From contig JAUHXR010000055.1 of the NCBI GenBank assembly GCA_030426845.1, forward strand, positions 1 through 36,693: DNA of 36,693 bases, given 5' to 3'. The notes under the pieces are model-generated. The model did no database searches. It saw only the letters and a list, made by a program, of their open reading frames with translations, and had not been told where the DNA came from. Each line of letters begins with the position of its first letter. Position 1 is the stretch's first letter. Below are positions 2,726 to 36,693 of this stretch, in pieces. The stretch comes from Polyangia bacterium (lineage in GTDB: Bacteria; Myxococcota_A; Polyangia; Polyangiales; Sandaracinaceae). Made by a program: the position numbers and the translations under genes.

Positions 2726-3493
2726 ATGCAGTACGCGCCGCCGCCGGAGGTCCTGGCGCGCCTCGACGAGGCGAGCGTCGAGGAGGCGCTGCGCGCGTTC
2801 TACGTGACGCGCCGCGAGAGCTGGCTGCGGCCGGAGGAGACCAAGAAGGTCACGGAGCTCGCGGGGATCCTGCCGGTGCTCGCGCGGACGCGGCTCGATC
2901 CGCTCCTCGTCGACGCGGCCGCGGGGCGGGCGCCGGTCGGGCTGATCGCGGCGCGGCTGCTCGGCTGGTCCCGGGTGGTCGTGATCGAGCGCGACCCGGG
3001 ACGCGCGGCCTCGGCGCGGCGCGCGGCGGCCCGGGCGCCGGCGCTCGGGGTGGAGGTGCGCGAGGGCGACGTGGCGGACGCCGAGGTCTGGCCGACGGGA
3101 GCCGAGGTGGTGGTGGCGCTCCACGCCTGCGGGCCGGCGTTCGACGCGGTGATCGACCAGGCGAGCCGGCGGGACGCGCCGTGGATCGTGGCCGTGCCGT
3201 GCTGCTACTCGGACGCCATCGCGTTCGCCGCGGTCGCGCGCCGCTGGGCCGACCACCTCGGCGTGGCGAGCCAGGCGGCGGTGCGGCGGCCGTTCGTGGA
3301 GTCGCTGATCGACACGGAGCGGACGCTGCGGCTCGAGGCGGCGGGCTACCGGGTGTCGGTGCAGGCGTTCGTGCCGCCGACGGTGACGCCGCACAACCGC
3401 GCGTGGAAGGCCCATCGCGTCGGGCCCGGCCGGCGCGCGGTCGAGGCGAAGGCGCGCTGGGACCGGCTGATCGCGGGGCCGCCCGGGGTCTAG
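2726..3493 (+). CDS. Class I SAM-dependent methyltransferase (Methyltransf_32-like)
   Basis: 255 residues. The Rossmann-type SAM-binding core is visible: motif I LLVDAAAGRAPVGL at about 60-73, the acidic end of strand 2 in VVIERDP (85-91), motif II region VREGDVAD, and the signatures ALHACG (131-136) and AVPCCYS (156-162) that mark the Methyltransf_32/METTL25-like group, whose members act mainly on RNA or unknown substrates. Motif I reads DAAAGRAP instead of the usual DxGxGxG, the normal form in this group (DxGSGxG) being somewhat eroded. The substrate is unknown. The ATG at 2726 follows a GAGG about 12 bases upstream. The stop overlaps the stop of the convergent unknown gene by four bases. 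Confidence 0.85.
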   Translation: MQYAPPPEVLARLDEASVEEALRAFYVTRRESWLRPEETKKVTELAGILPVLARTRLDPLLVDAAAGRAPVGLIAARLLGWSRVVVIERDPGRAASARRAAARAPALGVEVREGDVADAEVWPTGAEVVVALHACGPAFDAVIDQASRRDAPWIVAVPCCYSDAIAFAAVARRWADHLGVASQAAVRRPFVESLIDTERTLRLEAAGYRVSVQAFVPPTVTPHNRAWKAHRVGPGRRAVEAKARWDRLIAGPPGV

Positions 3494-3999
3494 CTCCCCG
3501 CGCCGCGGGCCCAAGGGAGGAGCGCGGCCTGCAAGGCGGCGTGCACATCTTCGTCGCGATCCCGCGGGAGCATGCACGCGACGAAGCCGACGCCGCTCGC
3601 GCCGCCGGCGCCCGGGGCGCCGTGGCCGCCGAGCTCGTCGAGCGCGAGGCACCCGTCGCCGGGGCCGAACGGGTAGGAGGCGGTCGCGGCGCGGAACAGC
3701 TCGCTCCAGCGCTCGGCGGTCGCGTCGGCGAGGAAGCGCTCCGCCGCGTCGCGGGTAGCGTCGAGCCGGGGGTGCGGCTCGGCGCCGCTGACCACCGGTC
3801 GCAGCGCCACCACCGCGCGGGCGATCAGGAGCCAGGTGGCGACCACCCGCGCGTCGTCGGGGGGCTCGGACCGACGCGCTGCGTGGTACGCCAGGTCGAC
3901 GCGGTGGACGAGCGCGACCATCGCGTCGCGCGGCGCGAGGCCCGCGTCGAGGGCCGCGAGGACGTCGGCCGCGAGCTCGGGCGTTGGGGGCCGAAACAC
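3490..3999 (-). CDS. Hypothetical protein, 169 residues, mostly helical
   Basis: I recognise no family. The frame stays open far upstream (to 5109), but that part is antisense or out of frame to the DegV gene; GTG at 3999 is the first usable start before the coherent part, giving a protein that begins FRPPTPELAADVLAALDAG. It is rich in Ala, Leu, Arg and Asp, with amphipathic helices, a Trp-containing helix ATWLLIARAVVALR near residues 52-65, and a glycine-rich loop GGHGAPGAGGASG followed by VGFVACMLP. No signal peptide or membrane span. The start is uncertain because no Shine-Dalgarno is visible. It lies downstream of degV-like on the same strand (107-base gap) and may share its transcript. 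Confidence 0.6.
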   Translation of the reverse strand: MFRPPTPELAADVLAALDAGLAPRDAMVALVHRVDLAYHAARRSEPPDDARVVATWLLIARAVVALRPVVSGAEPHPRLDATRDAAERFLADATAERWSELFRAATASYPFGPGDGCLALDELGGHGAPGAGGASGVGFVACMLPRDRDEDVHAALQAALLPWARGAGS

Positions 4000-22892: not shown

Positions 22893-24206
22893 CTACATCG
22901 TGTGCCCGCCGGCCGACGCCTCGGGCCACGGGTCGGTGAGGAAGTTCGGGCCCTCGTAGTCGTTGAGCCGGCTCACCCGCCGCAGCCCCCGGCCGGTGCC
23001 GTTCTGCCCCGTCTGACCGAGCGAGCAGTTGCGCGGTCCGCCGAAGGTCCCGCTCGGATCGAAGCAGCCGTCGGTCCAGAGCTGGATGGTCCGCTGGTTC
23101 CAGCCGCCGAGCCAGTCCCCGTGGAGCGAGCCGCCGGGCGTGCCTCGGTCCGACGAGAGGCGCCACTGGTCGACGCCCGCGCCCGCACCGTCGCGCCCGT
23201 TTGGGTAGTAGACGAGGTAGGTAATTTGCGGGACCCGGTAGGGGTGGCTCGCGGGGCAGGGGTCGTTGTTGTTGACGAACGCGGTGTGGCTCAGGTGGTC
23301 GTCCGAGCGCAGCACCGGCGCGCCGGTGCCGTCCACTGCGAGGCACTGCGGGAACTGGATCGAGGCGATGATCGAGTCGCCGGGGTTGCAGTCGAGCGGG
23401 ATGCGGCTCTGCGACGAGTGCGTCGAGCCGCTCACCCCGCACATCCAGGTGAGCCGCGTGTTGGCGGTGAAGGTCTCGCCTGCCGAGCCGCCCGGGCTCA
23501 CGTTGCCCGCGAGCAGCTCGACCCCCGGCGGCAGCGGGTGGACCTCCGAGGGGCGATGGCTCTTGTAGTAGAGGATGATCTGATCGGGCACGACGATGCT
23601 CGGGCCGTCGGCCGAGCGATCGAGCATCGCGGGGATCCAGTAGGCGGAGCGGTTGAGCTCGAAGCCCTGACAGGTCCCGCCTCCCGACTCGAGGATGCTC
23701 GCCGGGTTGGACGAGCCCGGGGGCTCGAAGACGGTGCCCGCGTGGGTGCGGGTGTTGCCCCAGAACATGTGGAGGTGGGCCGCGCCCGGCTGGCCGGGGT
23801 AGACGATCGGGTCGTCGTGGGCGAAGTGGGAGTACTGGCAGCCCACGCGGAACTGGCCCTGGCCGCCGGGCCCGGGGCCGTTGTCCGGTGGGCTCAGCCC
23901 GAGCGTGAAGTCGTCGTGCTCGAAGCCGAGCGCCTCGATCGCGGCCTGGGAGTCGCCTTCGTGCTGCCGAAAGAGAGGGTCGCGGTTGCGGATGGACTCG
24001 TAGCTCGGGCTCGCGTGGCCGCCCCCGTCGTGATCTCCCGCGTCCCCGATGGGCGGACCGGCGTCGTCCGGCGTGTCCCCCGCGTCCACCGCGGCGTCGA
24101 CCGCCACCGCGCCCGCGTCGCGGACCGGCCCCCCGTCGTCCGGAGGACCGTCCGCGTCGCACGCCGACAGGACGAGGAGGGCGATCGTGAGGCTGGTTCC
24201 GCGCAT
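22893..24206 (-). CDS. DUF1996-domain lipoprotein
   Basis: 437 residues from ATG 24206. Lipobox VLSAC (Cys16), then an Asp/Ala/Gly/Pro-rich linker to about residue 60. The rest is one DUF1996 domain: FRVGCQYSHFAHDDPIVYPG, then AAHLHMFWGNT (HLHxFxGN signature), SAYWIPAMLD, and the C-terminal CPASHPYRVPQITYLVYY and GGSLHGDWLGGWNQRTIQ with final cysteines. DUF1996 occurs in fungi, actinobacteria and myxobacteria; its function is unknown, and the conserved His/Asp clusters suggest metal or carbohydrate binding (inference). It is on the same strand as the tandem DOMON-like lipoprotein, 145 bases downstream of it. Confidence 0.9.
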   Translation of the reverse strand: MRGTSLTIALLVLSACDADGPPDDGGPVRDAGAVAVDAAVDAGDTPDDAGPPIGDAGDHDGGGHASPSYESIRNRDPLFRQHEGDSQAAIEALGFEHDDFTLGLSPPDNGPGPGGQGQFRVGCQYSHFAHDDPIVYPGQPGAAHLHMFWGNTRTHAGTVFEPPGSSNPASILESGGGTCQGFELNRSAYWIPAMLDRSADGPSIVVPDQIILYYKSHRPSEVHPLPPGVELLAGNVSPGGSAGETFTANTRLTWMCGVSGSTHSSQSRIPLDCNPGDSIIASIQFPQCLAVDGTGAPVLRSDDHLSHTAFVNNNDPCPASHPYRVPQITYLVYYPNGRDGAGAGVDQWRLSSDRGTPGGSLHGDWLGGWNQRTIQLWTDGCFDPSGTFGGPRNCSLGQTGQNGTGRGLRRVSRLNDYEGPNFLTDPWPEASAGGHTM

Positions 24207-24351
24207 CGACCGAGCATCACAGCATCCCGCGTGCCATGGCCAGCGCGCGCTTCGCCGACGCGTTCGCCCGGCTCCGGAGCGGGCCGCGCGCCGCCCGGAG
24301 CGCTCCGTGCACCACCGGCGGCGGCCCGGTGGCCGGCGCTCGAGGATCGGA

Positions 24352-25944: not shown

Positions 25945-26112
25945 ATGGAACCTGGCGACGAGCTCGACGACGCGCGTGGCGGCCTCCTCCTCGGGGGCGC
26001 GGTCGCCGCCCTGTTCTTCGTCGTGCTCGGCGGCGTCTACCTCACCGAGGGCCTCCCCGGCGTCGCGGGCATCGGGACGGCCGCGCTCGGCCTCTTCTAC
26101 CTGTCGTCATGA
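25945..26112 (+). CDS. Small membrane protein, 55 residues
   Basis: ATG 25945 to the TGA at 26110-26112, which overlaps the ATG of the PLD gene in an ATGA tetranucleotide. A short acidic N-terminus (EPGDELDDARGG) is followed by two hydrophobic segments (LLLGGAVAALFFVVLGGVYL and AGIGTAALGLFYL) with a tight turn between, so it is probably a two-span hairpin in the inner membrane. No family recognised. Support comes from the coupled overlap with a clear gene and the clean membrane pattern; the ribosome-binding site is poor. Confidence 0.6.
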   Translation: MEPGDELDDARGGLLLGGAVAALFFVVLGGVYLTEGLPGVAGIGTAALGLFYLSS

Positions 26113-27161
26113 GCGCCCTCCGTCTCCTCGACGGCGCCCCCGAGGCGTACCCCGCGATGATGGGCGCGATCGCGTCCGCGCGGCGGTCCGTGCTCCTCGA
26201 GATCTACCGGCTCGACGCGGCCGGGATCGGCGCGGACTTCCTCGACGCGCTAGCGGACGCGCGGCGTCGCGGCGCCCGGGTGGAGGTACGGGTCGACGGC
26301 TGGGGCAGCGCGGTCACCGCGCCGGCCCTCGCGGAGCGGCTCGAGGCCGCCGGTTGCGAGCTGCGCGTCTACAACCGCCTCCGCGACACCCTGTGGGGCC
26401 GCTTCGATCGCAACCATCGGAAGATCCTCGTGGTGGACGAGCGCGTCGGGTTCGTGGGCGGCCTCAACCTCGCGGACGAATACCTCGGCGGCCCGCAGGG
26501 CGCGCCGTGGGCCGACGTGGCGGTCCGGGTCGAGGCGCGCGGCTGCGCCGCCCTCACCCGCGCGGTGCGGCGCGAGCACGGGCGCGCGACGATCGATCGC
26601 GACGTCGACGTCTGGCTCAGCGGTCGCGGCGGGGGCTGGCGGCTCCTGCGTCGGTACCGGCGCGCGTTCGAGGACGCGTCGCGCCGCATCTGGCTCGCGC
26701 ACGCCTACTTCCTGCCGGACCGCCGGCTGGTGCGCCGCCTCGTCCGGGCCGCGCGGCGCGGGGTCGACGTCCGCCTGTTGATGCCGGCCCGGAGCGACGT
26801 CCCCCTCGCGACCCACGCGATCCGCGGCCTCTACCCGCGCCTTCAGCGCGCGGGCGTGCGCATATTCGAGTGGGAGCGCTCCGTCCTCCACGCCAAGCTC
26901 GCGCTCGTGGACGATCGCACGACGCTGGTGGGCAGCTTCAACCTCGACCCGCTCTCGTTCATGAACCGCGAGTGCCTGCTCGACGCCGCGTCGCGATCGC
27001 TCGCAGGCCAGGCGGGGGCGTGGCTCGAGGCGCGGTTCGACGACGCGCGTGAGGTCCCGGAGTCGTCCGGCTCCTGGTTCGATCGACGGATCCGCGCGCC
27101 GCTCGGGCTACGGCTGCGCGACGTCACCTGGCGCGCGGCGCGGGCGCTCGCTGCCGGGTGA
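26109..27161 (+). CDS. Phospholipase D/cardiolipin synthase-like protein
   Basis: 350 residues from ATG 26109. Two HKD motifs are complete: HRKILVVD with His103, Lys105, Asp110, followed by GFVGGLN; and HAKLALVD with His261, Lys263, Asp268, followed by LVGSFN. Size and spacing fit the ClsB/ClsC group of cardiolipin synthases, which exchange phosphatidyl groups between phospholipids. No N-terminal membrane span, so it is cytosolic or peripheral; the small membrane protein encoded just upstream with a 4-base overlap could be its membrane partner (inference). It is followed after 91 bases by the amidoligase gene on the same strand. Members of the superfamily can be nucleases as well, but the context of a membrane protein favours lipid chemistry. 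Confidence 0.92.
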   Translation: MSALRLLDGAPEAYPAMMGAIASARRSVLLEIYRLDAAGIGADFLDALADARRRGARVEVRVDGWGSAVTAPALAERLEAAGCELRVYNRLRDTLWGRFDRNHRKILVVDERVGFVGGLNLADEYLGGPQGAPWADVAVRVEARGCAALTRAVRREHGRATIDRDVDVWLSGRGGGWRLLRRYRRAFEDASRRIWLAHAYFLPDRRLVRRLVRAARRGVDVRLLMPARSDVPLATHAIRGLYPRLQRAGVRIFEWERSVLHAKLALVDDRTTLVGSFNLDPLSFMNRECLLDAASRSLAGQAGAWLEARFDDAREVPESSGSWFDRRIRAPLGLRLRDVTWRAARALAAG

Positions 27162-27252
27162 GGCATGCCGCCTCGATCGTGCGCGAGCGCTCGGTCGCCT
27201 CACCGTGCCCCCCAGCGCCGGCGTCGGCACGCCAGTTGAAGAGCCTACGGGC

Positions 27253-28167
27253 ATGACGGTCGATATGACGGGCGGTGCGCCCGAGGCGCGCGTGGGAGTG
27301 GAGATCGAGCTCGGCGGGCTCGACGTGGACGCCTGCGCGCGGGTGGTCGCGGGGGTCTTCGGCGGCGAGGTCGCGGAGGAGGGTCGGTTCGAGCGAAGCG
27401 TCGCCACCGACCTCGGCGAGTTCCGCGTGGAGCTCGACGCGGGCTGGCTCAAGGCGCTCGGCCGGCACTCGCAGCCGCCGGGCGCGATGGAGGAGGCGGT
27501 CGGGCGCGCGCTCGAGACGGTCGCGACCGAGGTCGTCCCGTGTGAGATCGTCGCGCCGCCGATCCCGCGCCGCGATCTCGGCGCGCTCGACCGGCTCGTG
27601 TCTGCGCTGGGCGACGCGGGCGGCCGCGGCACCTACGAGGCGCTGCGCTTCGGCTTCGGCGTCCACTTCAACCCCGAGGTGGATCCAGAGGACGTCCACG
27701 CGGTGCGGCGCACGATGCAGGCCTTCGCCGCGCTCCACGGGCGGCTGTCGCGCGAGTACCACGTCGATCCGTCACGGCGCCTCACGACCTTCATCGACCC
27801 GTGGCCGCGCGCCTACCGCGACCGGCTGATGGAGCCCGGCTACCGGCCCCGAAGCATGAGCGCGTTGATGGACGACTACCTCGAGCTCACCCCGACGCGG
27901 AACCGCGCGCTCGATCTGCTGCCGCTCTTCGCGCACGTGGACGAGGCGCGCGTGCGCGATCGGGTCGGCGACGAGAAGGTGAGCCCCCGCCCGACGTTCC
28001 ACTACCGGATGTGCAACTCGCGCGTGGGGCACCCCGACTGGCGGCTCACGCAGGAGTGGACGTCCTGGCTCAGGGTCGAGGCCCTCGCGGCGGACCCCGC
28101 GCGGCTCGCGCGCGAGCTCTCGGTCGCGCCCCGCGCGCCGCTGCCCTGGGACGGTCTCCTCACGTGA
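27253..28167 (+). CDS. Putative amidoligase (glutamine-synthetase-like COOH-NH2 ligase)
   Basis: 304 residues from ATG 27253. The N-terminus EARVGVEIELGGL is the (F/V)GVEIE motif of the amidoligase_2 (PF12224) family, predicted ATP-dependent ligases of the glutamine synthetase fold that join a carboxyl to an amine. Other fitting parts are RFGFGVHFNPEV, the basic strand SRRLTTFIDPWPRAYRDRL, and the late segment PTFHYRMCNSRVGHPDW. The next gene encodes a peptidase C26/gamma-glutamyl hydrolase-like protein, overlapping by 4 bases (GTGA). Pairs of this ligase with a class-I amidotransferase-fold protein recur in bacteria and point to making and breaking gamma-glutamyl amides. The substrate is unknown. 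Sure of the pairing; family assignment fairly sure. Confidence 0.8.
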   Translation: MTVDMTGGAPEARVGVEIELGGLDVDACARVVAGVFGGEVAEEGRFERSVATDLGEFRVELDAGWLKALGRHSQPPGAMEEAVGRALETVATEVVPCEIVAPPIPRRDLGALDRLVSALGDAGGRGTYEALRFGFGVHFNPEVDPEDVHAVRRTMQAFAALHGRLSREYHVDPSRRLTTFIDPWPRAYRDRLMEPGYRPRSMSALMDDYLELTPTRNRALDLLPLFAHVDEARVRDRVGDEKVSPRPTFHYRMCNSRVGHPDWRLTQEWTSWLRVEALAADPARLARELSVAPRAPLPWDGLLT

Positions 28168-28850
28168 GCGTGCGTCCGCTGGTCGTCGTCACCACCTCGG
28201 CGCACCGCTCGCGCCTCTACCCGGCGCTCCGGGCCGCGGTGCAGCTCGCCGGCGGGCGGCCCTGGCGCCTCGACCCGCGCCGCCCCCGACCGGACTGGGG
28301 CCGCGCCCGCGCGCTGCTGCTCGGCGGCGGGATCGACGTGGACCCGAGCCGCTACGGCGCGCCACGCCGTCCTGGCGCGCGCTACGAGCCGGAGCGCGAC
28401 GAGCTCGAGCTGAGCGCCCTCGCGCGCGCGGCGGAGCGCGACCTGCCGGTGCTCGGCATCTGTCGGGGCGCGCAGCTGATGAACGTCGCGGCCGGCGGCA
28501 CGCTGCACCTCGATCTGAGCGCGGTGGTGCCGGGCCACTCGCCCCGGGTCCGGCTCCGCGCGTTCAAGCCCGTGGACGTGCGCCCCGACACCGCGCTGCG
28601 ATCGGCGCTCGGGCGCAGCCGCCTGCGCGTGAACTCGATCCACCGGCAGGCGATCGACGCGGTCGGCGACGGGCTCACGGTGAGCGCGTTCGACGACCTG
28701 GGCGTCGTGCAGGGCGTCGAGCGCCCCGGCGCCTCGTTCTTCGTCGGCGTGCAGTGGCACCCCGAGCTGATGCTCCACCACCTCGCGCAACGTCGCTTGC
28801 TGAGGCGATTCACCGCCGCGGCTCGCGCGGACCGGAGCGCGGAGACCTGA
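28164..28850 (+). CDS. Peptidase C26/gamma-glutamyl-GABA hydrolase-like protein
   Basis: 228 residues from GTG 28164 (SVRPLVVVTTSAHR), the GTG overlapping the amidoligase stop. It has the class-I glutamine amidotransferase fold and the PuuD/gamma-glutamyl hydrolase features: LLLGGGIDVDPSRYG (52-64), the nucleophile elbow LGICRGAQLMNVAAGG with Cys100, VNSIHRQAID, and the catalytic QWHPE with His199 and Glu201. The triad is complete. PuuD-type enzymes cut gamma-glutamyl amides; together with the coupled ligase this suggests a two-step amine modification. The stop lies inside a 14-base tandem duplication (28835-28862). Confidence 0.92.
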   Translation: MSVRPLVVVTTSAHRSRLYPALRAAVQLAGGRPWRLDPRRPRPDWGRARALLLGGGIDVDPSRYGAPRRPGARYEPERDELELSALARAAERDLPVLGICRGAQLMNVAAGGTLHLDLSAVVPGHSPRVRLRAFKPVDVRPDTALRSALGRSRLRVNSIHRQAIDAVGDGLTVSAFDDLGVVQGVERPGASFFVGVQWHPELMLHHLAQRRLLRRFTAAARADRSAET

Positions 28851-28940: not shown

Positions 28941-28956
28941 TGGCACGTCCCTCGCA
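28941..28956 (+). promoter_or_regulatory. Sigma-54-like (-24/-12) promoter of the stressosome operon
   Basis: TGGCACGTCCCTCGCA matches the sigma-54 consensus (TGGCACG, four bases, TTGCW) at all positions except one (C for T at the -13 region), with the correct GG-to-GC spacing. Transcription would start near 28967, giving a leader of about 36 bases to the DUF1328 ATG. No enhancer-binding protein is encoded in the window. This is a sequence match only. Confidence 0.5.
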
Positions 28957-29002
28957 ACTCACCTCGATCGTACCCAACTCAACCCGAAGGAACCCCTCGC
29001 TC

Positions 29003-29170
29003 ATGCTGTACTGGACCCTGCTCTTCGTCGCCGTCGCGTTCGCCGCCGGCGTGCTCGGTTTCGGCGGCGTCGCGGCCGGGGCGGCCGGCATGGCGAAGAT
29101 CCTCTGCGTCGGTCTGCTCATCTACGTGGCCCTCGGCGCCGCCTCGCGCGCGCTCCGGCCCGCTGGCTGA
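29003..29170 (+). CDS. DUF1328 small membrane protein (YtjA-like)
   Basis: 55 residues from ATG 29003, preceded by GAAGGA about ten bases upstream. The sequence is nearly the full DUF1328 pattern: MLYWTLLFVAVAFAAGVLGF, then GGVAAGAAGMAKILC and a second span ending in GAASRAL. These two-span proteins occur widely in Proteobacteria and are often stress-induced; function unknown. It is the first gene of the operon, 53 bases ahead of the YtxH gene. It is below the length at which frames are normally listed, but the match is unambiguous. Confidence 0.92.
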   Translation: MLYWTLLFVAVAFAAGVLGFGGVAAGAAGMAKILCVGLLIYVALGAASRALRPAG

Positions 29171-29222
29171 GCTGGACCGAACCCCCGACCCGAGCTCCCC
29201 CGATCCCAACAAGGAGACCCAC

Positions 29223-29615
29223 GTGAACACCAACCCCATCCTCACCACGCTCAAGGGCGCCTACCGTTTGATGCAGTCCCTCGACATCCCGGACCTGCGC
29301 GGCCGCGCGATGGACCGCGCCGACTCGATGCTCGCCGGTTACGGCTACACGCGCGGCCCCTCGCTCGTCTCGCGCGTCGCGACCCACGCGGTGACCTTCG
29401 GCGCTGGCGTCGCGGTCGGCGCGGGGGTGGGCGTGCTGCTCGCACCCAAGGCGGGCGCGGAGACCCGTCGTGAGCTCGCCGAGGCGATGGAGGACCTCTA
29501 CTCCCGCGCTCGCGAGTCGCTCGGCGCAGAGCCCAGCGCGGAGGAGCCCGCCTCGCAGAGCGCGAACGAGCGGGCGCCCTCGAGCCCCGAGTCGATGAGC
29601 GCGCCGGCCAACTGA
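29223..29615 (+). CDS. YtxH-domain protein
   Basis: 130 residues from GTG 29223, with AAGGAG six bases upstream. The middle carries the YtxH signature, one glycine-rich membrane span AVTFGAGVAVGAGVGVLLAPKAG followed by AETRRELAEAMEDLYSRA. The C-terminal 35 residues are Glu/Ser/Ala-rich and disordered. YtxH proteins are general-stress proteins in Bacillus, where ytxH is under sigma-B; this fits their position ahead of an Rsb module. The TGA stop is directly followed by the GTG of the next gene with no gap, so translation is probably coupled. Confidence 0.87.
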   Translation: MNTNPILTTLKGAYRLMQSLDIPDLRGRAMDRADSMLAGYGYTRGPSLVSRVATHAVTFGAGVAVGAGVGVLLAPKAGAETRRELAEAMEDLYSRARESLGAEPSAEEPASQSANERAPSSPESMSAPAN

Positions 29616-30668
29616 GTGTCCCGCGCCCCCACCTCAGGCCCCCCCCACGTGCAGGCAGGCGACCGCCCGGTCGCCTCCCCGCGCGTGGCTGGATCGACGA
29701 CCGCGGCAAGGCCGCGCTCGACTCCACCCGGGCCAGCCGCCAGGCTCCACGGCGTGGCTGCCTCCCTCGCCGTGCACGACGCCGTCTGGGTGGCCGCGCG
29801 CGGAGACGTGGGGACGGCCCGCCGGGTCGCGATGCGCGTCGCCCTTGCGCGACCCGAGCTCGAGCCGGCGGTGGTCGGTCTCGTGGCGACGGAGCTCGCG
29901 ACCAACCTGGTCGAGCACACGGAGGGCGGCGTCCTCCAAGCGTTCGCGGACGCCGAGGGCCTCGAGCTGCTCGCGGTCGACGCGGGCGCGCGCGTGGCCT
30001 CCCGCTCCGGCCTGCGCGCAGGGCTGCAGACGATCGCCGAGCAGAGCGACGCGCTCGAGGTCGACGCGACCGAGGCAGGCAGCGTGCTGCGGTGTCGCTT
30101 CGGTCCGCCCGCGCGCGTCCGTTTCGGGCTCGTACAGGCGCCCCTCCGAACGTGCGATGGCTCGGGCGACGGGCTCGCGATGCGGTGCAATGCGGAGGGC
30201 TTCAGCGCGGTCGTCCTCGACGTGCTGGGCCACGGGCCGAACGCGAGCCGGGAGCGCGACGCCATCCTGAGCGCGCTCGACGCGACCGCGTGGGAGCGCG
30301 ACCCGGACGCGCTGGTAAGCGTGGTCGAGGGCGCGACCCGTGGGGGCCGAGGCTGCGCGCTGCGTTGGGTCTCGGTCGAGGGGGGCGCGCTCAACACGCT
30401 GAGCGCGGGGAACGTGAGCGGGGTGGTCCTCCGGACGGACGGACACACCCGCCTGCTGGACCGCCCGGGCCTGATCGGTCGCCGGGTGGACATCCGGCTC
30501 CGCACCCACCCGTGGGACGACTCGTGTCGCCTCGTCGTCCACACCGACGGGCTCTCGATCCGTCAGCTCGCTCCCCGCCGCGCGGGGGCCCCCGCGCTCG
30601 AGGCCGGCCGACTCTTTCGGGCAGCCGCGCGCACGCGGGACGACGCGACCGTGCTGGTGGTGGGATAG
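29616..30668 (+). CDS. RsbT-like ATPase fused to RsbX-like (SpoIIE/PP2C) phosphatase
   Basis: 350 residues if started at GTG 29616, directly behind the YtxH stop; the first 45 residues are low-complexity Pro/Ala/Arg, so GTG 29754 is a possible true start. Residues about 52-160 are a GHKL/RsbT-like ATPase domain with the N box VATELATNLVEH (Glu93, Asn97), but the G1 box reads VDAGARV where RsbT has DxGPGI, and the G2 box is degenerate. Residues 168-350 are a PP2C/SpoIIE-type phosphatase: VLDVLGHG (Asp202), HTDGLS (Asp311) and DDATVLVV (Asp343) retain the metal ligands. RsbX in Bacillus dephosphorylates RsbR and RsbS and resets the stressosome; this protein probably does the same. Confidence 0.88.
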   Translation: MSRAPTSGPPHVQAGDRPVASPRVAGSTTAARPRSTPPGPAARLHGVAASLAVHDAVWVAARGDVGTARRVAMRVALARPELEPAVVGLVATELATNLVEHTEGGVLQAFADAEGLELLAVDAGARVASRSGLRAGLQTIAEQSDALEVDATEAGSVLRCRFGPPARVRFGLVQAPLRTCDGSGDGLAMRCNAEGFSAVVLDVLGHGPNASRERDAILSALDATAWERDPDALVSVVEGATRGGRGCALRWVSVEGGALNTLSAGNVSGVVLRTDGHTRLLDRPGLIGRRVDIRLRTHPWDDSCRLVVHTDGLSIRQLAPRRAGAPALEAGRLFRAAARTRDDATVLVVG

Positions 30669-31924
30669 TGTCCTCGCGCGACTCACGCGCGCCGCGCGCG
30701 CAGACTCGACCGCAGGGCCTCCACCCGGTGCCGGCCGAATCGAGCGCTGCGAGCCCCGACCCGAGAGACGAAGACCGAGCCGAGCTCGCGCGCCTCCGCG
30801 CCGAGCTCGCGGAGACCAACCGCGGCGTGGTCGCGCTCCACGCCGACCTCGACGAGGCCGAGCGGCGTCGCAACGACTTCCTTGCGATGCTCGCCCATGA
30901 GCTTCGCAACCCGCTCGCAGTGGCGCGACTCGCCCTCGACGACATCGACCGCGAGGGCTCGAGGGAGATCCTCCACCGGCAGCTCGGCCAGCTCACGCGG
31001 CTCGTCGACGACCTGCTCGAGGCCTCGCGCGTGGTGCGCGGCAAGGTGTCGCTGCGCATGGAGCACGTCGAGCTCACCGAGCTCGTCGACACGCTCGTCC
31101 GCGACCGCGCGGCGGTGCACACCGCCCACGCCTTCGCGTGGGAGCGGCCCGCCTCGCCGATCGACGTGAAGGGCGACCCGGCGCGCCTCCGGCAGGTGCT
31201 GACGAACCTCCTCGACAACGCGCAGAAGTACTCGCCCGAGGGCACCACGATCGAGGTCGCGCTCACGGAGCGCGACGGCCAGGTCTCGCTCGCGGTGCGC
31301 GACGAGGGCCGCGGCCTGACCGCCGAGGAGCGCCGAAGGGTGTTCGACCTCTTCGTGCAGGCGGAGAGAACGCTCGCGCGCGAGCCTGGCGGGCTCGGCA
31401 TCGGGCTCACCCTGGTGCGTCACCTCGTGCAGCAGCACGACGGGGTCGTCTTCGTGGAGAGCGAGGGCCTCGACCGCGGCTCGCGCTTCGTGGTGGAGCT
31501 GCCGCAGGGCGGGGCGCCGGTCGCGTCCTCGGCTGCGTCCTCGCCCGACGCGGAGGTCACGCTCGCCGGGACGCGGGTCCTGCTGGTGGAGGACAACGAC
31601 GACCTGAGGCTGCTGCTCGCCGCTCGCCTGCGTCGCCACGGCCTGGAAGTGGACGAGGCGGAGGACGGGCTCGCGGCGCTCGCGACCCTCGAGCGGGGCG
31701 CCTACGACGTCGTGGTCGCCGACGTCGGCCTCCCCGAGGTCGACGGCTTCGAGCTCGCGCGGCGCGTGCGCGCGCGGTGGCCGTCCCAGCGCCTGATCGC
31801 CCTGACCGGGTACGGCTCGACGGAGCACCGGCGCCGCGCAGCCGACGCCGGCTTCGATCGGCACCTCGTCAAGCCGGTCGAGCTTCCTCAGTTGCTCGAG
31901 GCCATCGGCCGCGCCAAGACCTGA
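30668..31924 (+). CDS. Hybrid histidine kinase with C-terminal receiver domain
   Basis: 418 residues; GTG 30668 overlaps the preceding TAG by one base. A disordered N-terminus leads to a coiled coil containing ETNRGVVALHADLDEAERRR, a segment typical of histidine kinases linked to Rsb modules. The kinase core has the H box FLAMLAHELRNPLA (His77), N box LTNLLDNAQKYS (Asn184), G1 VRDEGRGL and G2 GGLGIGLTLV. The receiver (about 302-417) has Asp309/Asn310, phospho-acceptor Asp352 in VVVADVGLPEVDG, Thr380 and Lys402. There is no sensor or membrane domain, so the input must come from partners, most likely the stressosome. No output-domain response regulator is adjacent; one elsewhere may be the target. 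Confidence 0.94.
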   Translation: MSSRDSRAPRAQTRPQGLHPVPAESSAASPDPRDEDRAELARLRAELAETNRGVVALHADLDEAERRRNDFLAMLAHELRNPLAVARLALDDIDREGSREILHRQLGQLTRLVDDLLEASRVVRGKVSLRMEHVELTELVDTLVRDRAAVHTAHAFAWERPASPIDVKGDPARLRQVLTNLLDNAQKYSPEGTTIEVALTERDGQVSLAVRDEGRGLTAEERRRVFDLFVQAERTLAREPGGLGIGLTLVRHLVQQHDGVVFVESEGLDRGSRFVVELPQGGAPVASSAASSPDAEVTLAGTRVLLVEDNDDLRLLLAARLRRHGLEVDEAEDGLAALATLERGAYDVVVADVGLPEVDGFELARRVRARWPSQRLIALTGYGSTEHRRRAADAGFDRHLVKPVELPQLLEAIGRAKT

Positions 31925-31940
31925 CCTCACCGAGGAGCTC

Positions 31941-32747
31941 ATGCCGAACAAGAAGAAACTCTCCGCCCGCCTGCACGACCGGCGCGACGCGGTCCTGGCC
32001 GCCTGGCTCAAGGACCTCGACGGCCAGCTCGACCGCGACACGCGCGGCTTCCGCGACGACGCGTCCACGATCCTCGACCTCCTCATCACCCAATGCGGCC
32101 ACGCCGAGGAGCGGTGGGACGAGGCCGCCGACTCGCTGACCGAGCTCGCGCGCGCACGCGTCGCAGCGGGCTTTGCGACCGACGAGACCATCACGCTCGT
32201 GTCGGCGCTCCGCTCGGCGGCGCTCCGCGAGGTAGCCGCGCTCGACGACATCGAGCTCCTGCGGCACCTGTCCAAGCTGCTCGATGTGTTCCTGCGCTAC
32301 CTCGTCGACGCCTACGTCGAGGCGCGCGACCTCGTGATCGCGCGGCAGCAGGAGGACCTGCTCGAGCTGTCGACCCCCGCGGTGAAGCTGTGGGACGGCA
32401 TCGTCGCGGTGCCGCTCGTGGGCACCCTCGACAGCCGCCGCGCGGTGTCGGTGATGGAGTCGCTGCTCAACAAGATCTCCGAGACCCAGTCGACGATCGC
32501 GATCATCGACATCACCGGCGTGCCGACCGTGGACACCCAGGTCGCGCAGCACATCTTGCGCACCGTGGCCGCGGCGCGGCTCACCGGGGCGCGCTGCATT
32601 CTCTGCGGGATCCGCCCGTCCATCGCGCACACCATGGTGGAGCTCGGCATCGAGCTGAGCCAGGTGGAGACCCACGCCAACCTCGCGGCGGCCTTCGCGG
32701 CTGCGCTCCGCTCTCGCGGGCTGGACGTACGGACGAGCGATGCGTGA
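31941..32747 (+). CDS. rsbR: RsbR-type stressosome protein (RsbRD N-domain plus STAS)
   Basis: 268 residues from ATG 31941, with GAGGAG five bases upstream. The N-terminal 130 residues are an all-helical RsbRD_N-type domain (ARLHDRRDAVLAAWLKDL near the start), not the globin-like domain of Bacillus RsbRA. The STAS domain spans about 150-258: DGIVAVPLVGTLDSRRA, then IAIIDITGVPTVDTQVAQHI, in which Thr199 of VDT aligns with the phosphorylated Ser of RsbS, and CILCGIRPSIAHTMVELG. RsbR forms the stressosome core and is phosphorylated by RsbT. Its stop overlaps the RsbS start by eight bases. The helical N-domain is the likely sensor or docking part, with unknown ligand. Confidence 0.93.
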   Translation: MPNKKKLSARLHDRRDAVLAAWLKDLDGQLDRDTRGFRDDASTILDLLITQCGHAEERWDEAADSLTELARARVAAGFATDETITLVSALRSAALREVAALDDIELLRHLSKLLDVFLRYLVDAYVEARDLVIARQQEDLLELSTPAVKLWDGIVAVPLVGTLDSRRAVSVMESLLNKISETQSTIAIIDITGVPTVDTQVAQHILRTVAAARLTGARCILCGIRPSIAHTMVELGIELSQVETHANLAAAFAAALRSRGLDVRTSDA

Positions 32748-33105
32748 CGACGAGGCCTCGAGCCGCACCGCGATCCTCGCGATCGGCAACACGCTGATCG
32801 CGACCCTCCAGGGGTCGATCGACGACCGAGCGGCCCTCGCGCTCAAAGACGATCTCTCCCGCCGGGTGGTCGCCACGGCCGCGTCGGGCGTGCTGATCGA
32901 GCTGAGCGCGATCGACATCGTCGACTCCTTCATCGGCCGCGTCATCGCGGACATCGCGGCCGTCTCCAAGCTGCTGGGCGCGCGCGTCGTGGTCGCGGGG
33001 ATGCGCCCCGCGGTGGCGATCACGCTCGTCGAGCTGGGCCTGGAGCTCCCCGAGGTAGAGACGGCGGTGAACACGGAGCAGGGGCTCGCCCTGCTCGGGC
33101 GCTAG
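32740..33105 (+). CDS. rsbS: RsbS stressosome scaffold (single STAS domain)
   Basis: 121 residues, a single STAS domain of normal RsbS length. It starts at ATG 32740 inside the end of rsbR. Characteristic parts are TAILAIGNTLIATLQGSIDD and ELSAIDIVDSFIGRV, where Ser63 in DSF is the site RsbT phosphorylates in the Bacillus protein, and VVAGMRPAVAITLVELGLEL. Unphosphorylated RsbS holds RsbT in the stressosome; phosphorylation releases it. All expected residues are present. It is followed by rsbT after three bases. Confidence 0.94.
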   Translation: MRDDEASSRTAILAIGNTLIATLQGSIDDRAALALKDDLSRRVVATAASGVLIELSAIDIVDSFIGRVIADIAAVSKLLGARVVVAGMRPAVAITLVELGLELPEVETAVNTEQGLALLGR

Positions 33106-33108
33106 CGT

Positions 33109-33540
33109 ATGGTCTCCGACAGCGTCCGGCCCCTCGCGCGCGAGGCGCAGGTGATGCCGATCGTGTCAGACCACGACGTCGTGCTCGTGCGGCGCGCGGC
33201 GCGCGAGCTGGCCGAGGAGATCGGCATCGGGCTCGTCGCGCGGACCAAGCTCGTCACGGCCTGCTCCGAGCTGGCCCGCAACGTCCTCGAGCACGCGGGC
33301 GGCGGCCGCGCGAGCCTCGCGGTGGTCTCGCCGGACGGCGCTCGCCGGCACGGGGTCGAGGTGGTGTTCGCCGACGACGGGCCGGGGATCGGCGACGTCG
33401 AGCGGGCCTTCGAGCGCGGCTACAGCACCAAGCGCGGGCTCGGGCTCGGGCTCGGGGGCAGCCGCCGGCTGGTCGACGACTTCGCGCTGTCGACCGAGCC
33501 GGGCGAGGGGACCACCATCCTCATCCGCACCTGGGCGTGA
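33109..33540 (+). CDS. rsbT: RsbT switch kinase (GHKL anti-sigma-factor-type ATPase)
   Basis: 143 residues from ATG 33109; an internal ATG at 33154 with GAGG upstream is an alternative that still leaves the whole domain. The ATPase boxes are intact: N box TACSELARNVLEHAGGG (Glu54, Asn58), G1 FADDGPGI (Asp90), and the glycine stretch GLGLGLGG (110-117). RsbT phosphorylates RsbS and RsbR on stress and then leaves to activate a downstream partner (RsbU in Bacillus). No RsbU is encoded here, so its target is unknown; the hybrid histidine kinase or a diguanylate cyclase/PP2C elsewhere are possible. It is the last gene of the operon, followed by a strong hairpin. Confidence 0.94.
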   Translation: MVSDSVRPLAREAQVMPIVSDHDVVLVRRAARELAEEIGIGLVARTKLVTACSELARNVLEHAGGGRASLAVVSPDGARRHGVEVVFADDGPGIGDVERAFERGYSTKRGLGLGLGGSRRLVDDFALSTEPGEGTTILIRTWA

Positions 33541-33546
33541 ATTGAG

Positions 33547-33580
33547 ACGACCCCCGCGCCGGGCCGCGCGGGGGTCGTTT
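33547..33580. terminator. Hairpin terminator between convergent genes
   Basis: A perfect 13-base stem, ACGACCCCCGCGC paired with GCGCGGGGGTCGT, with a 6-base loop (CGGGCC), followed by TT on the plus strand. It begins six bases after the rsbT stop, and the stop of the convergent repeat-protein gene lies 24 bases beyond it. It probably ends both transcripts. The T-run is short, so efficiency as an intrinsic terminator is not certain. Confidence 0.75.
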
Positions 33581-33603: not shown

Positions 33604-36600
33604 TCAGCGCCGTCGGCGGCGCCGGAACCCGAAGGCGCCGGCCGCCACCGCGAGGAGCGCGAGGCCGAGCGGCGCGCCGCCCGAACCCGGCTCCACCGCG
33701 CAGAGCGCGCCGCCGCTCACCCCGCCCACCGTCGGGCCCGAGCCGGGCTCGAGGTAGTCGGGGATCCCGTTGCCGTCCGCGTCGTCGGGCTCGTCCATGT
33801 CGGGCACGCCGTCGCCGTCCGCGTCGACGTCGAGCCAGTTGGGCGCGCCGTCGCCGTCGACGTCGTCGCTCGGGGTGGGCAGCGCCCGCCCGTCGGTGAC
33901 CTCCGTCGCGGTCGGGATGGTGTCGTTGTCGTCGTCGGGATCGAGGAAGTCCGGGATCCCGTCGCCGTCGAAGTCGCGCGGCGAGCCCGCGCCGCCCTCA
34001 CCGAGCTCGTCGGCGGTGGGGAGGGTGTCGTTGTCGTCGTCGGGGTCGAGGTAGTCGAGCGTCCCGTCGCCGTCGGTGTCGCGCGGGCTGGAGGGCCCGC
34101 CCGTGCCGAGCTCGGTGCGCGTCGGCACGCCGTCGCCGTCGTCGTCCGGGTCGTCGAAGTCGGGCCGCCCGTCGCCGTCGGTGTCGGGGCAGCCCGCTGG
34201 ATCGCCGATCGGATCGCCGGGGGGCGGGCACTCGACCGAGTCGAAGAGCCCGTCCATGTCGGTGTCGCGCTCGCCCGGCGAGCCCTCGAGTCGGCAGGTC
34301 ATGTCGCAGCCGTCGCCGTCAACCTGGTTTCCGTCGTCGCACTGCTCCCAGTCCGCGCCCTCGAGGGCGCTGACCTGGCCGTCGCCGCAGACGTCCCGGT
34401 AGTCGGGGAAGCCGTCACCGTCGGTGTCCGGGCAGCCCGCCATGACGTTGGGGCACTCGGTCGCGGTGGGGATCCCGTCGTTGTCGTCGTCGGGGTCGAG
34501 GTAGTCCGGCACGCCGTCGCGGTCGGTGTCGTCGTCGGTCGGATCCCCGTCGCCGTCGTAGACCTCCTGCCGCGTCGGGATCCCGTCGTTGTCGTCGTCG
34601 GGGTCGTCGAAGTTCGGGCGCCCGTCGCCGTCGGTGTCGGGGCAGCCGGTCGGGTTCCCCACCGGGTCACCGGGGGGCGGGCACTCGACCACGTCAGGGA
34701 TGCCGTCCATGTCGGTGTCCGTCGGGATCGAGTCGGCGTCGAGGTAGTCCGGTGTGCCGTCCATGTCGGTGTCGGGGCAGGACATCGGGTCGACGCACTC
34801 GAGGCTCGTGACGATGCCGTCCATGTCGTCGTCGACGTCGCGCCAGTCGGGCGTTCCGTCCGCGTCGGTGTCCTGGAGCGGCGCGTCGGTGCCGCCGTTG
34901 TCCGGGTCGTAGGCGTCGTCGAGGCCGTCGCCGTCCGCGTCCATCCCGAGCGCGATGCGGTCCGGCGCGCCGTCCATGTTCGCGTCGTGGCCCTCGATGG
35001 AGTCGAGGATTCCGTCGCCGTCCGTGTCGAGGTCCCAGAGGTCCGGCACCCCGTCGCCGTCGGTGTCCTCACACTCCGCGACGGTGCACTCGAGGCGGTC
35101 GAGGATCCCGTCGTCGTCGCTGTCGATGTCGAGGTGGTTGGGGCGCCCGTCGCCGTCGCGGTCGCAGACGGCGGGTCCGCCGACGCACTCGACGCGGGTC
35201 GGCACGCCGTCCCCGTCGTCGTCGGGGTCCTGGTGATCGGGCATCCCGTCGCCGTCGGTGTCCGGGCACATCGCGATGTCGCCCGCGCACTCCACGTCGT
35301 CGGAGAGGCCGTCCATGTCCATGTCGCTCGGCCCGCCGTCGGGATCGAGGTAGTCGGGCGTCCCGTCCATGTCCATGTCGGGGCAGGTCATCGTCGGGTC
35401 GGCGCACTCGGAGGTGGTGCCGACGCCGTCGCCGTCGTCGTCCGGATCACGCCAGTCCTGCGTGCCGTCCATGTCGGTGTCGGGCAGCGGCGCGACGACG
35501 CCGCCCGCGTCGGGATCGAACGCGTCGTCGATCCCGTCCATGTCCGCGTCGGCGCCGGCCGGCGTAACGTCGGGGACGCCGTTCATGTCGGCGTCGTGGC
35601 CCTCGGTCGCGTCCGGGATCCCGTCGCCGTCCGCGTCGAGGTCGAGGTGGTCGGGCACGCCGTCGAGGTCGGTGTCCGGGCAGGCCGTCGGGTCGGCGCA
35701 CTCCACGAGGTCGCGGATGCCGTCGCCGTCGCTGTCCGCGTCGAGGTAGTCCGGGTGACCGTCCGCGTCGGCGTCCGGCCCGGCCGGCGCGCGGCCGCCC
35801 TGGTCGACGTCGAAGGCGTCGTCGATCCCGTCGCCGTCGAAGTCCACGCCGCGCGGGAGGATGTCCGGCGCGCCGTCGCCGTTCGCGTCGGTCGCCTCGA
35901 CGCGATCGAGGAGGCCGTCGCCGTCGGAGTCGGTGTCGAGGAAGTCCGGCCGCGAGTCGCCGTCGCTGTCCTGCGCGGCCGCGGCGCGGCCCCCGTTGTC
36001 CGGGTCGTAGGCGTCGGCGAGGCCGTCCATGTCGGTGTCCACGAAGGCCATCGGCACGGCGGTGTCGGGCACCCCGTCGCGGTTGGCGTCGTGACCCTCG
36101 GTCGTGTCGGCGATCCCGTCGCCGTCCGCGTCGAGGTCGAGGTGGTTGGGCACGCCGTCCTGATCGAGGTCGACGCCGACCGGCAGCTCGTCGCAGCTGC
36201 CGTTGGCGTCGAGGTCCATGCAGGTCACCGCGTCGGGGTCGACGTAGTCCGGGATCCCGTCGCTGTCCGAGTCGACGCTGTAGTCCGTGCCGCCGCCCTC
36301 GACCACGTCGGGGATGCCGTCGTTGTCGTCGTCGATGTCGATGTCGTCCGGCAGGCCGTCGCCGTCGCTGTCGCCGAACTCGCAGGTCTGAGCCGGGCTG
36401 CACACCTGGGAGCCGGGGCAGTGCGCGTCGGTCGCGCACTCGACGCAGGCCGCGCCCGCGCCCGTCACGTCGCAGATCGGGGTCGGGGCCATGCACCCCG
36501 AGTCGGTGCCCGCGCCGGTCGCGTCGTCGACGCACACGTCACACGTGTTGCGCGCGACGTCGCAGACGCCCATCGCGCAGTGCGCGCTCTCCGTGCACTC

Positions 36601-36693
36601 GACGCAGGCCGTGCCCGCGGTGCCCATGCCCGAGGCGCCCGCGCAGATCGGGGTCGCGGCCGCGCAGCCGCGGTCGACGCCGCCGCCGCTCAT
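33604..36693 (-). CDS. Giant thrombospondin-type-3 repeat protein with C-terminal sorting tail (5' end missing)
   Basis: 1029 residues are visible; the ATG at the window edge lies in the middle of a cysteine module (AATPICAGASGMGTAGTACVEC), so the gene certainly starts outside. Residues 1-110 are Cys-rich modules. About 112-965 is an almost unbroken array of thrombospondin type 3-like calcium-binding repeats of the form DxDxDGxxD, with links such as PTRVECVGG and PGCPDTDGDG. A single DUF4215 cysteine module (CGDGQVSALEGADWEQCDDG) interrupts the array near 764-803. The C-terminus is ALCAVEPGSGG, a hydrophobic span LGLALLAVAAGAFGF and six Arg, close to the myxobacterial Cys/transmembrane/Arg sorting tail (GC_trans_RRR/MYXO-CTERM type). 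A rigid, calcium-loaded surface stalk or adhesin is the likely role. Confidence 0.9.
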   Translation of the reverse strand: MSGGGVDRGCAAATPICAGASGMGTAGTACVECTESAHCAMGVCDVARNTCDVCVDDATGAGTDSGCMAPTPICDVTGAGAACVECATDAHCPGSQVCSPAQTCEFGDSDGDGLPDDIDIDDDNDGIPDVVEGGGTDYSVDSDSDGIPDYVDPDAVTCMDLDANGSCDELPVGVDLDQDGVPNHLDLDADGDGIADTTEGHDANRDGVPDTAVPMAFVDTDMDGLADAYDPDNGGRAAAAQDSDGDSRPDFLDTDSDGDGLLDRVEATDANGDGAPDILPRGVDFDGDGIDDAFDVDQGGRAPAGPDADADGHPDYLDADSDGDGIRDLVECADPTACPDTDLDGVPDHLDLDADGDGIPDATEGHDADMNGVPDVTPAGADADMDGIDDAFDPDAGGVVAPLPDTDMDGTQDWRDPDDDGDGVGTTSECADPTMTCPDMDMDGTPDYLDPDGGPSDMDMDGLSDDVECAGDIAMCPDTDGDGMPDHQDPDDDGDGVPTRVECVGGPAVCDRDGDGRPNHLDIDSDDDGILDRLECTVAECEDTDGDGVPDLWDLDTDGDGILDSIEGHDANMDGAPDRIALGMDADGDGLDDAYDPDNGGTDAPLQDTDADGTPDWRDVDDDMDGIVTSLECVDPMSCPDTDMDGTPDYLDADSIPTDTDMDGIPDVVECPPPGDPVGNPTGCPDTDGDGRPNFDDPDDDNDGIPTRQEVYDGDGDPTDDDTDRDGVPDYLDPDDDNDGIPTATECPNVMAGCPDTDGDGFPDYRDVCGDGQVSALEGADWEQCDDGNQVDGDGCDMTCRLEGSPGERDTDMDGLFDSVECPPPGDPIGDPAGCPDTDGDGRPDFDDPDDDGDGVPTRTELGTGGPSSPRDTDGDGTLDYLDPDDDNDTLPTADELGEGGAGSPRDFDGDGIPDFLDPDDDNDTIPTATEVTDGRALPTPSDDVDGDGAPNWLDVDADGDGVPDMDEPDDADGNGIPDYLEPGSGPTVGGVSGGALCAVEPGSGGAPLGLALLAVAAGAFGFRRRRRR
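33760..36380 (-). repeat. Thrombospondin type 3-coding DNA repeats
   Basis: About 2.6 kb of degenerate tandem repetition, recognised on the plus strand by the constantly recurring GTCGCCGTCGGTGTC and GTCCATGTCGGTGTC words at spacings that are multiples of three. On the minus strand these encode DTDGDG and DTDMDG. The units are not identical, so they are an old, coding repeat and not a satellite. The region is likely to collapse or mis-assemble in short-read data. Confidence 0.85.

Follow-up and report, generated by a model that had tools for sequence, protein, structure and literature searches.

Seven genes of a Polyangia bacterium (Sandaracinaceae; GenBank assembly GCA_030426845.1), lying head to tail on the forward strand of contig JAUHXR010000055.1 between positions 29003 and 33540, probably constitute a complete-looking stressosome operon with a hybrid histidine kinase as its output. 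In comparison with a widespread module, the operon is rearranged and simplified. The window, i.e., the whole stretch of 36,693 nucleotides (nt) analyzed here, is one entire contig (C98) of a 9.4-Mb draft genome (538 contigs; 95% complete). We consider it likely that the operon, which is probably sigma-54 dependent, signals from its switch kinase RsbT to the histidine kinase via a conserved linker helix directly in front of the HisKA domain. Kinases as stressosome outputs have already been published (Heinz 2022, PMC9237108; this paper, PMC12143880, and PMC10436020 are cited from excerpts throughout). What is added here is a helix common to the outputs, together with an RsbT-like domain preceding this helix in 28 of 80 kinases.

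Results

All seven genes named in an initial annotation of this DNA, made from the sequence alone, were found again in the same order by using Pfam, models, and profiles. They encode a DUF1328 small protein (29003 to 29170; PF07043, 30.3 bits versus a cut-off of 27), a YtxH-like protein with a GTG start (29223 to 29615; PF12732, 44.9 bits), an RsbT-RsbX fusion (29616 to 30668), the hybrid histidine kinase (30668 to 31924), RsbR (31941 to 32747), RsbS (32740 to 33105), and RsbT (33109 to 33540). The tight packing claimed for these genes was confirmed as well, with gaps of 52, 0, 16, and 3 nt and overlaps of 1 and 8 nt. Given this operon-like spacing, the locus is probably a single operon whose genes would be co-transcribed.

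RsbR consists of an N-terminal RsbRD_N sensor domain (PF14361) and a STAS domain, in which T199 and S165 align with the phospho-acceptor region of solved RsbR; we take the positions aligned with them to be the RsbR phospho-acceptors. RsbS is a single STAS domain with RsbS 6jhk as its best PDB match (E value, 2e-31), and it keeps the DSF motif with the acceptor S63. RsbT is a GHKL kinase with intact N, G1, and G2 boxes, for which SpoIIAB proteins were the nearest solved sequences. It is present in a single copy, as the four other matches in the genome were weak (22 to 28 bits) and lay inside frames of 517 to 794 amino acids. In the box counts, 5 of 111 rows entered as T had lost boxes and look like fragments, not RsbT.

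The absence of a sigma factor and of RsbU, first remarked on for the operon, extended to the genome within its 95% completeness. There was no match to RsbU_N (PF08673), with a positive Bacillus subtilis control, and none of 13 sigma-like matches was above the NCBI cut-off of TIGR02980 for SigB/F/G-type factors (best match, 136 of 234 bits). Six of the other SpoIIE matches in the genome were scanned with Pfam, and all fell into general PP2C families.

The window kinase contains HisKA (H77), HATPase_c, and REC (D352) domains. As stated in the initial annotation, no sensor domain was found in it, yet it keeps the linker helix that is common to outputs in distant phyla. The helix spans kinase residues 46 to 63 (positions 30803 to 30856, forward strand) and was detected with a linker model of 30 columns, against which the window kinase scored 46 to 47 bits, its own row being among the 13 from which the model was built. 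In the window kinase, HisKA is preceded by ELAETNRGVVALHADLDE, a stretch that is also present in three other genomes (G149, G287, and G239). The shared consensus, E-[TS]-N-[RQ]-G-V-[VL]-A-L-[YH]-A-[ED]-L, leads into the catalytic part of the outputs. Before HisKA, the window linker is exactly seven residues (one heptad) shorter than in its relatives, as expected if helical phase matters. Streptomyces phosphatases carry HQTNQGVLALHAELD and scored 31.5 and 31.9 bits with the linker model, the next unrelated protein in the scored set reaching at most 5.7 bits. The presence of the helix on these phosphatases indicates that it marks the output slot and not merely one kinase family. In a structural model of the Bradyrhizobium T-kinase (L165), the linker lies within one helix (residues 159 to 245) that continues into DHp. 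When the first 66 residues of the Variovorax kinase were searched against the PDB, only coiled-coil noise was returned.

For a survey of related modules, the best 80 of at least 594 contig matches to [ED]TN[RQ]GVVAL were taken, ranked by likeness to the Variovorax linker. In 74 of these 80 loci the gene order was R-S-T-fusion-kinase; among the remaining six, four were cut by a contig end, one had no separate T match, and in one (L151) R-S-T was divergent. The order of the window, fusion-kinase-R-S-T, occurred in none of the 80. In plasmids, the consensus linker peptide matched 24 of 72,556 records, from seven genera, and nine of 10 loci examined held the R-S-T-fusion-kinase order, the tenth beginning at a record edge. 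A search with RsbS, which is independent of the linker, covered 282 genomes of the phylum and yielded 20 loci, from 18 genomes. Ten of the 19 loci other than the window had the order R-S-T-fusion (one more was cut by a contig end), and the kinase directly followed the fusion in 5 of these 10. When the fusion was used as the plasmid query, 98 records were matched, from which five further modules were examined. All three Roseobacter modules had an output that lacked the linker and was composed of an RsbT-like domain and an HWE/HisKA_2 kinase (Pfam checked for two of the kinases), and both Streptomyces modules had an RsbU-like GAF-SpoIIE phosphatase in the kinase slot. An RsbU-like target beside homologous modules had been named in the initial annotation as speaking against its proposal; the Streptomyces phosphatase is in part such a target, yet it has the same helix.

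Along most of their sequence, all five window proteins matched their counterparts in the G149 module, at 52% (RsbR), 56% (RsbS), 57% (RsbT), 34% (fusion), and 48% (kinase). The fusion-kinase pair is parted from R-S-T also in G300, where no R-S-T lies beside it, and in L151, where it is divergent, which suggests that the pair can move as a unit. As judged from gene order, we regard the window operon as a permutation of the conserved module, with the fusion-kinase pair shifted in front of R-S-T, and not as a new module. Its order is indeed unlike that of Bacillus, as had been pointed out, but it is odd among the relatives of the operon too. Likewise, phosphatase and kinase do precede RsbRST in the window, but a phosphatase in first position is by itself not unique. 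The idea that a single-domain RsbX ahead of RsbS-RsbR is unique to the window was refuted by T-X-S-R-T-like orders in four loci (L052, L053, L055, and L080). In Nonomuraea and Embleya (L087 and L091), a REC-SpoIIE phosphatase gene follows the stressosome kinase. This arrangement resembles the RsbK-RsbY wiring of Bacillus cereus, set on a stressosome.

The fusion protein of the window combines an RsbT-like (GHKL) domain (approximately residues 50 to 165) with an RsbX/PPM phosphatase (approximately residues 166 to 350) that retains the invariant acidic residues. Its SpoIIE score of 24.1 bits was slightly below the Pfam cut-off of 25, and it was assigned by its model and a homologue profile. The C-terminal half matched RsbX (3w40; E value, 4e-4), and the closest solved RsbX-type fold was 3zt9, which we take to be from Moorella (VIA-align: Z score, 24.2; root mean square deviation, 2.1; 184 residues aligned, mainly from residues 166 to 350, with the RsbT half lying outside the alignment). 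The N-terminal half had no Pfam match; a profile of 35 fusions matched SpoIIAB with this half (E value, 3e-4), and residues 51 to 165 were modeled confidently (pLDDT of 79 to 97 in most blocks and 69 in one). Model and sequence together suggest that the RsbT half is real but degenerate. It has lost the glycines of its ATP boxes (G1 and G2), whereas both G1 glycines were kept in 97 of 98 fusions, the window fusion being the sole exception in a count that left out L048 of G300, in which the fusion likewise appears degenerate on visual inspection. With the ATP boxes of the fusion lost, free RsbT would be the only intact switch kinase of the window. A scan of the genome contigs with the window fusion as query found no relative. 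The detached pair of G300 (L048) consists of a fusion gene at 2801 to 3775 and a kinase gene at 682 to 2808, both on the reverse strand.

RsbT-like domains were also found on output proteins. Besides the 28 kinases with such a domain before the linker, the Roseobacter and Streptomyces outputs carry one, which appears degenerate by eye in Streptomyces; no N-terminal RsbT-like domain was detected in the window kinase or in the other 52 of the 80. In a wider set of 38 RsbT-like kinase domains, E was kept in 36, N, D, and both G1 glycines were kept in 32, and the G2 glycines were kept in 30 and 33. Most modules of this kind have two or three RsbT-type domains, in comparison to one intact copy in the window.

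Within the order, 13 of 183 genomes have a strong linker kinase, five of them at stressosome loci and eight elsewhere. G341 was counted as a stressosome locus, although its contig ends at RsbX with R-S-T out of view and no RsbS match was found in that genome. The eight kinases away from RsbRST rule out the linker as a stressosome-only signature. Six of the eight (all but L210 and L211) were checked with Pfam for their neighbors, and these adjoin B12-binding or bilin reductase genes. At three of the eight loci (L209 to L211), an RsbR-type STAS gene lies approximately 5 to 7 kb off, without RsbS or RsbT. The kinases of this group (L206 to L213; G337, G389, G376, G412, and G399 to G403) are hybrid kinases with a linker variant, beside genes for B12-binding proteins or ferredoxin-dependent bilin reductases, and possibly belong to light-input systems using a related kinase.

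The operon is headed by a sigma-54-type −24/−12 site (28941 to 28956, forward strand) with one mismatch to the scanned consensus TGGCACGN4TTGCW, as had been noted initially; 46 nt separate the end of the site from the ATG of the DUF1328 gene. By expectation, 0.13 sites with one mismatch would occur per window, and two were found. The second (24221 to 24236, reverse strand) lies approximately 15 nt before a DUF1996 gene (22893 to 24206, reverse strand). In G149 and G287, the best sites upstream of RsbR had one mismatch and were located 67 nt before RsbR, and the operon head of G239 has a one-mismatch site just inside an over-called start of a universal stress protein (Usp) gene. Among 20 operon-head regions scanned, sites with a single mismatch were present only in these three and the window. 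G149 and G287 are from the family of the window, belong to one genus, and are nearly identical at this locus. Hence, three genera of the order have a sigma-54-like site at the head of the operon, whereas the first gene varies (DUF1328, RsbR, or Usp). Upstream of RsbR in 74 other loci (L093 to L172) there was no sigma-54 signal (two loci with at most two mismatches versus four on the reverse strand), which indicates that the site is a feature of the lineage and not of the module. Judging from this site, the operon is probably sigma-54 dependent. No gene for an activator (enhancer-binding protein) was seen beside the operon, the rest of the genome not having been searched for one. At the other end of the operon, the strong hairpin that had been described (33545 to 33580, between convergent genes) was supported by a folding energy of −34.6 kcal/mol for a 53-nt stretch (z score, −3.7); however, it has no U-run and did not pass the terminator scan.

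DUF1328 and YtxH had been proposed as co-regulated effectors or membrane sensors. Sharing of the operon promoter by both genes is plausible, but a partner role is weak. Each family was present in 9 of the 20 stressosome genomes, whereas both were near RsbS only in the window; as conserved stressosome partners they were rejected on this count (1 of 20 genomes). In G149 (L194, contig C74), DUF1328 and YtxH genes are on opposite strands, separated by 2.3 kb and not located at the stressosome; the pairing thus recurs independently of it.

Upstream of the operon, genes on the same strand (25945 to 28850) code for a 55-amino-acid open reading frame, a phospholipase D-like protein (26109 to 27161), an amidoligase (27253 to 28167), and a peptidase C26/GATase protein (28164 to 28850). 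An amidoligase gene is also located approximately 4 kb from RsbS in G211, and a homologue of the phospholipase D-like gene adjoins the stressosome of G193 (L069). Downstream, a gene on the reverse strand (33604 to 36693) encodes a long Asp-rich repeat protein, which has a hydrophobic stretch in its C-terminal part and ends in an Arg-rich segment; the gene runs off the contig edge.

Discussion

The assembly, phosphorylation, RsbT-linker contact, and relay direction that we propose are predictions from gene content and order, motifs kept or lost, linker, spacing, and the promoter-like site conserved in the family. A shell of RsbR and RsbS STAS domains would hold RsbT. Upon stress sensed by RsbR, RsbT would phosphorylate S63 of RsbS and T199 of RsbR and then leave the shell, and the RsbX half of the fusion would dephosphorylate the shell and thereby reset the stressosome. 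Freed RsbT may act on the kinase via the conserved helix, which would run into the HisKA dimerization helix, a step that can be likened to the stiffening of the RsbU linker by RsbT in Bacillus. Phosphate would pass from H77 to the kinase's own REC domain (D352) and from there to a phosphotransfer protein or regulator encoded elsewhere. The window kinase would have lost the RsbT-like domain that in relatives is often fused to the output protein as well as to the phosphatase, and DUF1328 and YtxH would be lodger genes under the operon promoter. The initial annotation had already put the kinase forward as a candidate output of RsbT. This stands insofar as the hybrid kinase is the likely output and the genome has no RsbU/SigB route; the contact between RsbT and the kinase we infer.

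Several observations weigh against this interpretation. The gene order was read from one draft contig. A REC-bearing gene follows the kinase in 78 of the 80 loci, but none follows in the window. The invariance of the linker in these loci is partly by construction, as they were chosen through the linker itself. The linker is not universal, since it is missing from the kinases that follow the fusion in G211, G057, G212, and the Roseobacters, and it is not exclusive to stressosomes either: the eight kinases at other loci carry variant DESNRGVVTLHAELEE and the like, and two genomes of the same family hold a linker variant elsewhere. The AlphaFold model of the T-kinase had a pTM of 0.42, so that its domain placement is unreliable. 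Finally, when RsbT of Vibrio vulnificus was tested for interaction with the downstream two-component protein VvD1, the reported outcome was not positive (PMC9237108).

The RsbT-like domains on outputs can be read in two ways. Tentatively, and with less confidence than in the operon itself, we suggest a class-wide output socket, in which an RsbT-like docking domain and the helix would receive varied effectors (HisKA kinases and GAF-PP2C phosphatases; in HWE kinases the domain only). In modules without RsbU, this helix, instead of RsbU_N, would be read by RsbT or RsbT-like domains, and the window would represent a stripped version with the helix only and one working RsbT. Alternatively, the kinase could be a client of the STAS shell, in which case outputs would dock on RsbR or RsbS by their own RsbT-like domain and be released or activated together with RsbT. 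The boxes of the RsbT-like N-terminal domains on the 28 output kinases are mostly intact, and such domains on the Roseobacter and Streptomyces outputs fit as well, but docking of the window kinase and of the 52 others in which none was detected would need another surface; we consider this alternative unlikely.

Signaling through the helix also has to be weighed against phosphorylation of the kinase or its REC domain by RsbT on Ser/Thr, the linker then being merely a structural signaling helix. RsbT is a protein kinase, and phosphorylation of a sensor kinase by RsbT was suggested for Vibrio (Heinz et al., PMC9237108). However, the linker is conserved beyond the need of a generic coil (partly by selection of the loci) and recurs on a phosphatase, which makes this a rather improbable explanation. 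The chances are poorer still for a true output encoded away from the operon, be it a general PP2C, an anti-sigma pair, or a sigma-54 activator, with the kinase as a bystander that the rearrangement brought in. The genome does contain other PP2C genes and sigma factors, and no regulator adjoins the kinase; on the other hand, a kinase or linker-bearing effector is found in the module across phyla, the genome lacks RsbU_N, and the other PP2Cs examined fall into general families. An artefact of draft assembly, for which the 538 contigs, the window being one whole contig, and an order seen in no other locus could be cited, is highly improbable given that the new junctions are tight (TGA followed by GTG without a spacer; 16 nt before RsbR), that the five proteins are all similar to those of the G149 module, and that the pair is also parted from RsbRST in L151 and G300.

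For the question of how stressosomes without SigB relay their signal, the helix and the natural RsbT-output fusions offer short, testable constructs. The window operon lends itself to such tests, as only one of its RsbT copies is intact and its kinase has the helix and no sensor domain. Its main value lies in drawing attention to the conserved helix as the likely entry point of the stressosome signal into the output protein. A text search of the literature for the linker string gave no match. No paper on RsbT-RsbX or RsbT-kinase fusions was found by title or abstract, a search that did not cover key reviews and is no proof of novelty.

Modules of the rsbRSTX type without SigB are found in many phyla, with phosphorelay, cyclic di-GMP, or PP2C outputs; RsbX is described in them as a single-domain phosphatase, and most outputs are without RsbU_N, the route from RsbT being left open for most (PMC9237108). 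The rsbRSTX locus of V. vulnificus (VvD1-VvD2) shares with the window RsbR, RsbS, RsbT, RsbX, and a histidine kinase-type output in one locus, with no SigB or RsbU in the operon, and the Vibrio module is co-transcribed with its output (PMC10436020). Unlike in Vibrio, RsbX of the window forms a fusion with an RsbT-like domain, RsbRD_N takes the place of the globin in RsbR, the gene order is permuted, a separate regulator gene is missing, and the kinase has the ETNRGVVAL-type linker. The modules of Variovorax, Bradyrhizobium, Deinococcus, Anaeromyxobacter, and others have the same five gene types and the linker before HisKA, but differ from the window in the order R-S-T-TX-kinase, the intact RsbT half of the fusion, and a REC gene that mostly follows. 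With rsbRSTUVW-sigB-rsbX of B. subtilis, the window operon has in common the RsbR/RsbS/RsbT switch and reset by RsbX, whereas RsbU, RsbV, RsbW, and SigB are absent from it, the output is a kinase, and the order is different. The stressosome of Moorella thermoacetica likewise has a non-sigma output, a diguanylate cyclase (PMC12143880), which, however, is reached via an RsbU-type N-terminal domain that is absent in the window. RsbT activates RsbU by ordering its linker, an idea that was extended to kinases bearing RsbU_N (eLife 2025, PMC12143880). In the window kinase, too, the signal is proposed to run through a coiled linker beside a dimeric effector, but the kinase lacks RsbU_N, and its linker is a different conserved sequence.

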